Source: an uncultured Clostridia bacterium
Lineage (GTDB): Bacteria > Bacillota > Clostridia > Peptostreptococcales > Anaerovoracaceae
Assembly: GCA_944388495.1 (NCBI GenBank)
Contig: CALXIZ010000051.1
Location: forward strand, 1-38,605
DNA: 38,605 nt
Direction of reading: 5' to 3'
A program made the translations under genes and the position numbers. Of this stretch, positions 36,469 to 38,605 are shown piece by piece. The stretch's first letter is position 1. The number at the start of each line of letters is the position of its first letter. The notes beneath the pieces were generated by a model, which saw nothing but the letters and a program-made list of their open reading frames with translations, made no database searches and was not told where the DNA came from.

Positions 36469-36499
36469 TTTAAGAATTTCTTAAGAAATACGGTATAAA
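36469..36499 (+). promoter_or_regulatory. Direct-repeat activator-like site and -10
   Basis: TTTAAG-N5-CTTAAG (36469-36485) has the 11-bp period of OmpR-family response-regulator sites (CiaR-like). It covers where the -35 would be for TATAAA (36494-36499). The second unit is part of a 14-bp palindrome ATTTCTTAAGAAAT (36476-36489). Confidence 0.4.
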
Positions 36500-36519
36500 A
36501 TAAAAAAAATTCGGTGACA

Positions 36520-36600
36520 AAAAATGTAAAAGAGCAACTTTCGGCATAAGTTGCTCTTCGAAGTTGAAACTTGAAATGAGTTAAACGAATAATAAGTTCA
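36520..36600 (-). ncRNA. Candidate small RNA, about 80 nt
   Basis: On the minus strand TTGCTT (36629-36634), 17-bp spacer, TATATT (36606-36611) predict a start near 36599. The RNA would end in an 11-bp hairpin AAGAGCAACTT/AAGTTGCTCTT (36530-36540, 36548-36558) followed by TTACATTTTTT. Upstream in the RNA, TTGAACTT and AAGTTTCAA can pair. No coding potential. Unknown family. Confidence 0.45.
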
Positions 36601-36960
36601 AGATAAATATAACCTCTGCCGGGAGAAAAAGCAAGTGTTTTTTCTCCGTTTTCCGAAAAATTTTTTTACTGTCACGGAACTGTAATGATTCCCATGGTTA
36701 TGGGAATCACAGCTGATGTAAAATAATTCCATAAAAGAAAAATCAGCGGTATGGAAGTTTTCGGAAAAAGGTATCGGCGCGGGTTTTGAATAAGGAAAAA
36801 AAGGGTAAAAATGAACGATATATATGTGTGAAAAACGGGCTTATTGAAATATTTAAAAAAAATTACAGAAAATTCAATAACCGAAATTATTTCGGTTTGA
36901 ATGCCTTTTCGCTCTATTTGTGAGACAAAAAGCCACTTTTTTTCTTGACAGAGGGCATAT

Positions 36961-36990
36961 TTATTTTGTTTTGATGATCAAATAAAATAA
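36961..36990. promoter_or_regulatory. Imperfect palindrome before the CbiK-like gene
   Basis: TTATTTTGTTTTGAT and ATCAAATAAAATAA around a central G form a 30-bp imperfect palindrome. A perfect TTGACA (36945-36950) lies just upstream but no good -10 is 17 bp away. Candidate operator. Confidence 0.4.
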
Positions 36991-37081: not shown

Positions 37082-37930
37082 ATGAACGAAAAAAACAGAG
37101 CGGTTCTCGTGGTACAGCCGGGAGACTCTGACGGAGAAAGACAGGCACATCCGGGATGCGGACGGCAGCGGGACGGCAGTCCGTCTGAAGAGTATCTGAT
37201 GCGGCGTTTTCCGCGGATCCGTCTTTACAGAGCTTTCACCGACCGCGGAGCCGTGAGGTCTCTGAGACAGAAGGGAAAGGATGCGGATACAGTCCAGGAA
37301 GCGCTGGAGAGGATACGGACGGACGGATATCTGCAGGTGAGCGTGCAGCCGGCTATGATTACGGGCGGGACGCCGTATGAGATTATGATGGAAGAAATCG
37401 CTGCGCGCGTCGGATACGGATGTTTTTCCGCGGTTATCGCCGGAAGACCGCTGCTGACGGAGCGGGAGGACTGTGTTTCTTTTGCACGGGTTCTGAGAGA
37501 AACGCTGTCCGGTTCCGGAGAATGCCGCCCGGATATCCGGCTTTCACGGCAGAGCAGAGATGAAGAGCATGGCGGGCGCGCTGTCCTTCTGATCGGCGGA
37601 CGGGCGGATGAAAGGGAAAGAGCGCTGTACCGGATGCTGCGTGAGGAACTGAAAGCGCAGGGTGCGGAAGGTCTCTGTCCGGCTGCGGAAAACGAAAGAG
37701 AAGATATCGAAGCCTTCCTTTTCGGACTGTCGGAACGGGGCGTTCACGGGATCTGTCTGCAGCCCTTCACCTTCCTGAACGGCGGCAGTTCATCTGTCTC
37801 CGAAATGCGTATCCTTCTGCAAAAGCAGGGATTTGACGCGGAATTCTGCCGGAGAGGACTGGAAGACTATGAGGCGGTGTGCAGGCTTTTCGGCGACAGG
37901 CTGGAGCAGATTCTGCCGCGGGAGGACTGA
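37082..37930 (+). CDS. CbiK-like chelatase homologue without metal-binding histidines
   Basis: 282 residues. It follows the CbiK (anaerobic sirohydrochlorin cobaltochelatase) fold end to end: RLYRAFTDRGAVRSLRQKG matches the RAFTSxxIxRKL region, ADTVQEALERIRTDGY and VSVQPAMITGGTPYE match the QxxHIIxGxEY region, and a second half (VLLIGGRADERERALY, ICLQPFTFLNGGSSS) repeats it. The two CbiK metal-binding histidines (GHG, VAGDHA) fall at Gly173 and Ser236 here, and the HIINGEEY histidine is Met. It is thus unlikely to insert cobalt as CbiK does; it may bind a tetrapyrrole or have a new job. ATG 37082; the EcsC gene follows in 54 bp. Confidence 0.7.
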   Translation: MNEKNRAVLVVQPGDSDGERQAHPGCGRQRDGSPSEEYLMRRFPRIRLYRAFTDRGAVRSLRQKGKDADTVQEALERIRTDGYLQVSVQPAMITGGTPYEIMMEEIAARVGYGCFSAVIAGRPLLTEREDCVSFARVLRETLSGSGECRPDIRLSRQSRDEEHGGRAVLLIGGRADERERALYRMLREELKAQGAEGLCPAAENEREDIEAFLFGLSERGVHGICLQPFTFLNGGSSSVSEMRILLQKQGFDAEFCRRGLEDYEAVCRLFGDRLEQILPRED

Positions 37931-37984: not shown

Positions 37985-38605
37985 GTGAAACAGAAAAAAA
38001 CGGTGAGACGCCGGGAGTGGGAAGAGATCAGAAAAAAAGAGAAGAAATTTCTCGACAGCAGGCGGGAGAAAAAAGAGAGCCGTCTGAACCGCCTTCTGGA
38101 GGAAAAAGTGCCGGATCAGCTGCAGTCGAAACTCGATGCAGCCTTTGAAAAAGCCTTCTCTCTGATTTTTCAGAAGGGAACCGGCCTGATCGAAAAGACT
38201 TACAGCAGAGAAAAAATCGAGCGGACCTATGAGGTTAACCGGTATCTCGCGGGGCTTGAGGAAAACAGGAGAAATATGAGAGCTTTTTCAAAGAGCGCGG
38301 ACGCAGCGGGCGGGAAAAATCTCATCATCAGCGGCCTGGAGGGGATCGGGCTCGGCATTCTGGGAATCGGTCTGCCGGATATTCCGCTCTTTACCGCTCT
38401 GATTCTGAAAAATATGTATGAGCTGGCGCTCAGTTACGGCTTTTCCTATGAGACGGAAGAGGAACGCTGCTGGATTCTGCTGCTGATCCGCGGAGCGCTG
38501 GCATACGGAGACGATGCAGTGAAGCTGAGCCGGGAAGCGGATCTGTTCATACGGGAAGGCACACCTCCGGAAAATTACAGTGAAAAGGAGTCGATCAGAC
38601 AGACG
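37985..38605 (+). CDS. EcsC-family protein, 3' end outside the window
   Basis: The reading frame is open from GTG 37985 to the window end (207 codons, no stop), so the protein is incomplete. AAAGGAG lies nine bases upstream. The first 60 residues are strongly charged (MKQKKTVRRREWEEIRKKEK), likely a coiled coil; then comes the EcsC core (EGIGLGILGIGLPDIPLFTA, LKNMYELALSYGFSYETEEE), with two hydrophobic stretches. EcsC proteins are named after a B. subtilis ABC transporter operon; their function is not settled. It begins 54 bp after the CbiK-like gene and is probably cotranscribed. Confidence 0.75.
   Translation, partial: MKQKKTVRRREWEEIRKKEKKFLDSRREKKESRLNRLLEEKVPDQLQSKLDAAFEKAFSLIFQKGTGLIEKTYSREKIERTYEVNRYLAGLEENRRNMRAFSKSADAAGGKNLIISGLEGIGLGILGIGLPDIPLFTALILKNMYELALSYGFSYETEEERCWILLLIRGALAYGDDAVKLSREADLFIREGTPPENYSEKESIRQT

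Follow-up and report, generated by a model that had tools for sequence, protein, structure and literature searches.

A CbiK-family protein without a chelatase active site, encoded upstream of ecsC in an uncultured Clostridia bacterium

CbiK, sirohydrochlorin cobaltochelatase, is the class II chelatase that inserts cobalt on the way to vitamin B12. The FetB/IhtB protein of Porphyromonas gingivalis, a haem-binding relative of CbiK and a non-cobalamin member of its fold, is a surface lipoprotein, and the CbiK of Desulfovibrio vulgaris (2xvx, 2xvz) is a periplasmic protein that has been co-crystallised with cobalt. FetB/IhtB has been described as a porphyrin chelatase (PMC13402209). In the CbiK of Salmonella, the active-site histidines are His145 and His207, and class II-type chelatases vary in which domain carries the histidines (PMC7689651). 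The literature searched yielded no report of a protein with the class II chelatase fold, CbiK included, as a pseudo-enzyme. Here we describe a CbiK-family protein of 282 amino acids that lacks the chelatase active site, encoded at 37082–37930 (plus strand) of a window of 38,605 nucleotides from an uncultured Clostridia bacterium of the Anaerovoracaceae, the window being the whole stretch of DNA analysed and the entirety of one contig (C51). If functional, this protein would constitute a natural test of the class II chelatase fold without metal chemistry.

The open reading frame begins with ATG and runs for 282 codons with no internal stops. Its product matches the CbiK profile PF06180 over residues 36–277 (60.5 bits against a gathering cut-off of 26.2, E 2e-16) and covers profile positions 24–260 of 262, which identifies it as a CbiK homologue; it also matches Salmonella CbiK (1qgo) in sequence (E 4.8e-12), and the two are alike in fold and length. 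An AlphaFold model based on a 60-row alignment (pLDDT 86.3, pTM 0.86) predicts a two-domain class II chelatase fold, with the periplasmic D. vulgaris CbiK as its closest solved structure (Z 27.3, rmsd 2.4 over 250), followed by Salmonella CbiK (Z 25.9), FetB/IhtB (9b86; Z 25.4, 21% identity), and SirB and the ferrochelatases (Z 14–18). Because the input alignment consisted of active CbiKs, the model is biased towards the CbiK fold and is not independent of the fold assumption, whereas the sequence and profile matches are. Together, the profile, sequence, and fold results exclude a chance similarity. The original prediction that the CbiK pattern extends over the whole length is hence borne out, and the proposed comparison of a predicted structure with solved CbiK structures (Z 25.9–27.3) points to the same fold. 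The protein falls far short, however, of the NCBIfam equivalog for the CbiK enzyme (NF047852, 49.6 bits against a cut-off of 400), nor does its gene belong to a cob operon. Its N-terminus (MNEKNRAVLVV) runs straight into the first strand, as in a cytosolic protein and unlike an exported lipoprotein of the FetB/IhtB type, and in contrast to D. vulgaris CbiK it has neither a signal peptide nor the metal-binding histidine pair. No DNA-binding, signalling, or output domain is attached to it. A family-level Pfam match alone would name such a protein a cobalt chelatase, which should be taken as a warning for annotation.

While fold and length are preserved, the catalytic histidines and the other site motifs of the CbiK enzyme are gone. 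In an alignment with 59 CbiK relatives, all from named genomes, His145 of the GHG motif corresponds to Gly173 (Gly173-Arg174 codons at 37598–37603, in place of His145-Gly), His207 of GDH to Ser236 or, in other alignments, to a gap, and a third histidine, that of QPTH, to Met92 (QPAM; codon at 37355–37357); each of these positions is an invariant histidine in 59 of 59 relatives. Other site motifs, fully or almost fully conserved in the relatives, have also changed: SFGT has become QPGD, GTVE has become AAEN, GHG reads GGR, and the second histidine of GHGT-H is Glu177. NGGSSS stands in place of AGDHAxND (codons 233–239, NGGSSSV, at 37778–37798), the acidic DSW (Trp) loop that follows is ~8 residues shorter, and the C-terminal histidine of the relatives is an arginine. 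No replacement histidine for the lost ligands is seen in either the N-terminal (QPGDS, Met92) or the C-terminal (GGR, NGGS) half-site, and among all CbiK open reading frames of the first locus set it is this gene alone that lacks GHG. Positions that look structural (RAFT, QP, PLL, Asp130, Tyr183, and Gly250) have in turn been retained. The loss of the three chelatase histidines originally proposed is thus confirmed by profile, alignment, and structure, and it proves to be wider than proposed, encompassing the whole active site. With all conserved active-site motifs lost, the protein is not expected to insert metal by the chemistry known for CbiK, and the view of this protein as a catalytically dead CbiK paralogue is well supported. 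Our main reading, to which we assign a probability of roughly 0.55, is that the gene encodes a non-catalytic, cytosolic CbiK paralogue, or pseudo-chelatase, that has been kept in the genomic context of EcsC, FabT-type control, and tetrapyrrole uptake described below, and that probably serves a new, non-catalytic job.

The gene has a very narrow distribution. In the sole other genome of the genus that was found (G001), the sequence preceding ecsC matches the window at 84% identity until just past an operator-like palindrome and then continues for ~170 bp to ecsC, with no CbiK-like gene or remnant of one between operator and ecsC; the gene was therefore either gained in the lineage of this species or cleanly lost in that of its sister. 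Across 350 genomes of the family and 394 of the order the search turned up no orthologue, the best match (78.8 bits, 31% identity) being a CbiK with all its histidines, and a peptide-pattern scan of 84,980 genomes yielded 48 pattern matches, none of which is a relative. The protein sits on a branch of 5.9–6.7 changes per column with no settled position in the tree, and its grouping with the neighbouring lipoprotein CbiK, as under an origin by local duplication, is not rejected (p-AU 0.397 and 0.214).

Absence from the sister locus, confinement to one genome, a very long branch, and the loss of all functional motifs are what one would expect of a relic, a former CbiK in decay that is open by chance and does nothing, and the restriction to a single species together with a branch as extreme as that expected under weak constraint weighs against a kept protein. 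We nonetheless deem a relic rather unlikely. Neutral drift should have brought many stops: about 4% of random single substitutions in this frame would create one, and identity to relatives is about 25–31%. The persistence of 282 intact codons at such divergence suggests constraint over most of the gene's history, although this is an argument and not a measurement. Codon usage is likewise host-like, scoring 0.193 in frame and about −0.02 and −0.01 in the other frames, compared with 0.195–0.251 for six reference neighbour genes and 0.144 for ecsC. Furthermore, the structural-looking positions have been kept while site residues were lost, and the protein is predicted by AlphaFold to fold (pLDDT 86). 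The intact frame, a conserved promoter position, and the existence elsewhere of a degenerate CbiK clade under selection lead us to favour retention in a non-catalytic role over a relic.

That clade belongs to another genus of the family, in which five species (G147, G149, G150, G152, and G156) carry a cytosolic CbiK with a degenerate site (L026:1420–2205, L030:1483–2268, L227:3074–3853, L228:2963–3742, and L229:3050–3829). In these proteins His207 is replaced by Ser or Ala, the third histidine by Tyr, the Glu of GTVE by Asn, and the Trp by Met or Ile, while His145 of GHG and SFGT are retained. In all five species the gene is followed after ~15 bp by one resembling glutamate dehydrogenase (gdhA, an assignment made by eye). 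The five are under strong purifying selection (dN/dS 0.04–0.08 where measurable), which shows that a CbiK may degenerate and yet be retained. The window protein resembles the gdhA-linked clade in being cytosolic and in carrying Asn (for the Glu of GTVE), Ser (for His207), and Met (for the Trp) at three of these columns, where the alignment is uncertain; it differs in that the clade keeps His145 and SFGT and is partnered with gdhA, not EcsC. In the tree the five members form a starred clade (99/97), whereas their union with the window protein (81/90) is unstarred and joins long branches, with the attendant warning of long-branch attraction. The histidine-less clade envisaged in the original prediction thus exists only in part, as a second clade that has kept His145, and the co-occurrence with EcsC envisaged with it is not seen: no match from the clade genomes is listed in the EcsC search. 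As a subject for study, the gdhA-linked clade may be better than the window gene.

The next gene on the same strand, at 37985–38605, belongs to the EcsC family (PF12787, E 1.2e-29; assigned by profile and by its sister-genome orthologue), its 3′ end being cut by the end of the contig. It follows the CbiK-like gene after 54 bp, with no plus-strand terminator between them, in agreement with the earlier proposal of EcsC as a partner; the pairing is not conserved, however, as the sister genome has EcsC without the CbiK-like gene and, in the further genera examined, the EcsC orthologues have no CbiK nearby. To go by their titles and abstracts, the papers found that name EcsC proteins do not take the family as their subject.

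The promoter region suggests how the two genes may be controlled. The FabT operator consensus has been given as ANTTTGATTATCAAATT (PMC10138225). The palindrome TTTGATGATCAAA, at 36970–36982, fits this consensus and is conserved before ecsC in the sister genome; in its wider form, TTTTGATGATCAAAT at 36969–36983, it likewise conforms to the consensus, near a promoter whose probable −35 element, TTGACA (36945–36950, plus strand), precedes the palindrome and is conserved between the two genomes. This genome and G001 each contain exactly three instances of the pattern TTTGATNATCAAA, against none for a reversed control pattern, and the three loci correspond between them: before the CbiK-like gene (where present) and ecsC, before fabK, and before mmdA. 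The fabK gene (TIGR03151 equivalog) heads a set of fatty-acid synthesis genes, and the operon that it leads ends in a MarR-type gene (G000:C130:5811–6311) whose best NCBIfam match is FabT (107.6 bits, below the cut-off of 200) and which also matches the FabT structure 6jbx (E 2.5e-21). A FabT-type operator ahead of the CbiK-like gene and ecsC predicts fatty-acid-linked control, and we infer from these sequence features that both genes may form one FabT-controlled transcription unit. For EcsC, a family of unknown function, the predicted FabT site offers a testable tie to lipid synthesis. The mmdA gene, encoding the methylmalonyl-CoA decarboxylase alpha subunit, is an unexpected target for an operator of this type; besides window positions 36970–36982, the operators lie at L222:967–979 and L220:1501–1513, and those of the sister genome in L219, L221, and L216.

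Beyond ecsC, the neighbourhood is tetrapyrrole/corrinoid-related. The last 23 bp of the window (38583–38605) are identical to the end of another contig of the same genome (C139), as expected where contigs abut in the assembly, and mark a join to an operon with a cobalamin riboswitch (84 bits against a gathering score of 31.5), a CbiK lipoprotein, a NEAT-like protein, and a BtuFCD-like transporter. In the sister genome, EcsC, a cobalamin riboswitch, a CbiK lipoprotein, a NEAT-like protein, and a periplasmic binding protein follow in this order on one contig; on C139 the binding protein is followed by a FecCD/BtuC-like permease and an ATPase, and the top NCBIfam hits of these two, BtuC and a corrinoid transporter ATPase, fall below their equivalog cut-offs. 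The NEAT assignment is weak, at 19 bits against a cut-off of 32.8. The absence of an adjacent cobalamin or haem gene asserted in the original prediction hence does not hold, and was perceived because the contig ends inside ecsC. The CbiK lipoprotein of this operon (G000:C139:4754–5671, or L050:4754–5671) lies two genes downstream of the window gene once the contigs are joined and belongs to the same family with 24% identity, but, unlike the window protein, it is a lipoprotein, has all the histidines, and is controlled by a cobalamin riboswitch (L050:5831–6081).

The proximity of a B12 riboswitch and of corrinoid/haem-type uptake genes, together with the presence of FetB (9b86, Z 25.4) within the CbiK fold, would also suit a tetrapyrrole or haem carrier or sensor, in which the cleft binds a tetrapyrrole without inserting metal and passes it on or signals its level; the original prediction had suggested a sensor or carrier of tetrapyrrole or metal. 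We think this quite unlikely, given that further conserved site motifs have been lost besides the metal ligands, that no output domain is present, and that the window protein is cytosolic whereas FetB is an exported lipoprotein. It is very improbable, finally, that the protein has remained active through relocated ligands and provides this genome with its cytosolic cobalt chelatase. A cytosolic enzyme of that kind is formally missing, since the genome encodes CbiD and CbiC of the anaerobic pathway but not a separate CbiX, and the one CbiK that has the histidines is an exported lipoprotein; members of the class also differ in the histidine-bearing domain (PMC7689651). Against this, no histidine in either half-site substitutes for the lost ligands, the sister species has no CbiK-like gene, and in a genome that is ~93% complete the real chelatase may be unassembled.

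A kept, non-catalytic paralogue would work along the following lines. The protein would retain the class II chelatase fold and, lacking the active site, would not insert metal by CbiK chemistry; it would be expressed together with EcsC as one FabT-controlled unit, beside the riboswitch-controlled operon that encodes the exported CbiK, the NEAT-like protein, and the BtuFCD-like transporter. It might then serve for binding instead of catalysis, most likely by accommodating in the old cleft either a protein partner, be it EcsC or a different membrane-associated protein, or a ligand of tetrapyrrole or lipid-like type, and this role might be geared to membrane-lipid status as well as to the adjacent uptake system. 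A bolder version, which we hold to be improbable, is that a chelatase fold has here been turned into a non-enzymatic component tying tetrapyrrole/corrinoid uptake to the state of membrane lipids, FabT-controlled with EcsC, beside the B12-riboswitch uptake operon and with relatives that may include the gdhA-linked clade; if true, it would amount to a previously unrecognised class of pseudo-chelatases.

Several features of related genomes and of the window itself deserve mention in their own right. Very long open reading frames (590–742 aa) with CbiK matches, some with at least two in tandem, occur in related genomes (G301:C53:225–6533, G303:C84:8042–9736, and L003) and may be read as multi-CbiK-domain proteins. 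In G252 (L052:555–5623), the CbiK most closely related to the window protein adjoins a protein resembling the NEAT-like one, at a locus that also holds genes resembling, by eye, those of siroheme/haem precursor synthesis. Upstream in the window, an Rfam candidate, RefA9, was considered at 36495–36558 and set aside (31 bits against a gathering score of 49). The intergenic element at 36510–36650 is 98% identical in the sister genome and 74–76% identical in two other genera; it resembles a small RNA, is present as a single copy per genome, and lies 3′ of xerC-rplS both in the window and in G177.
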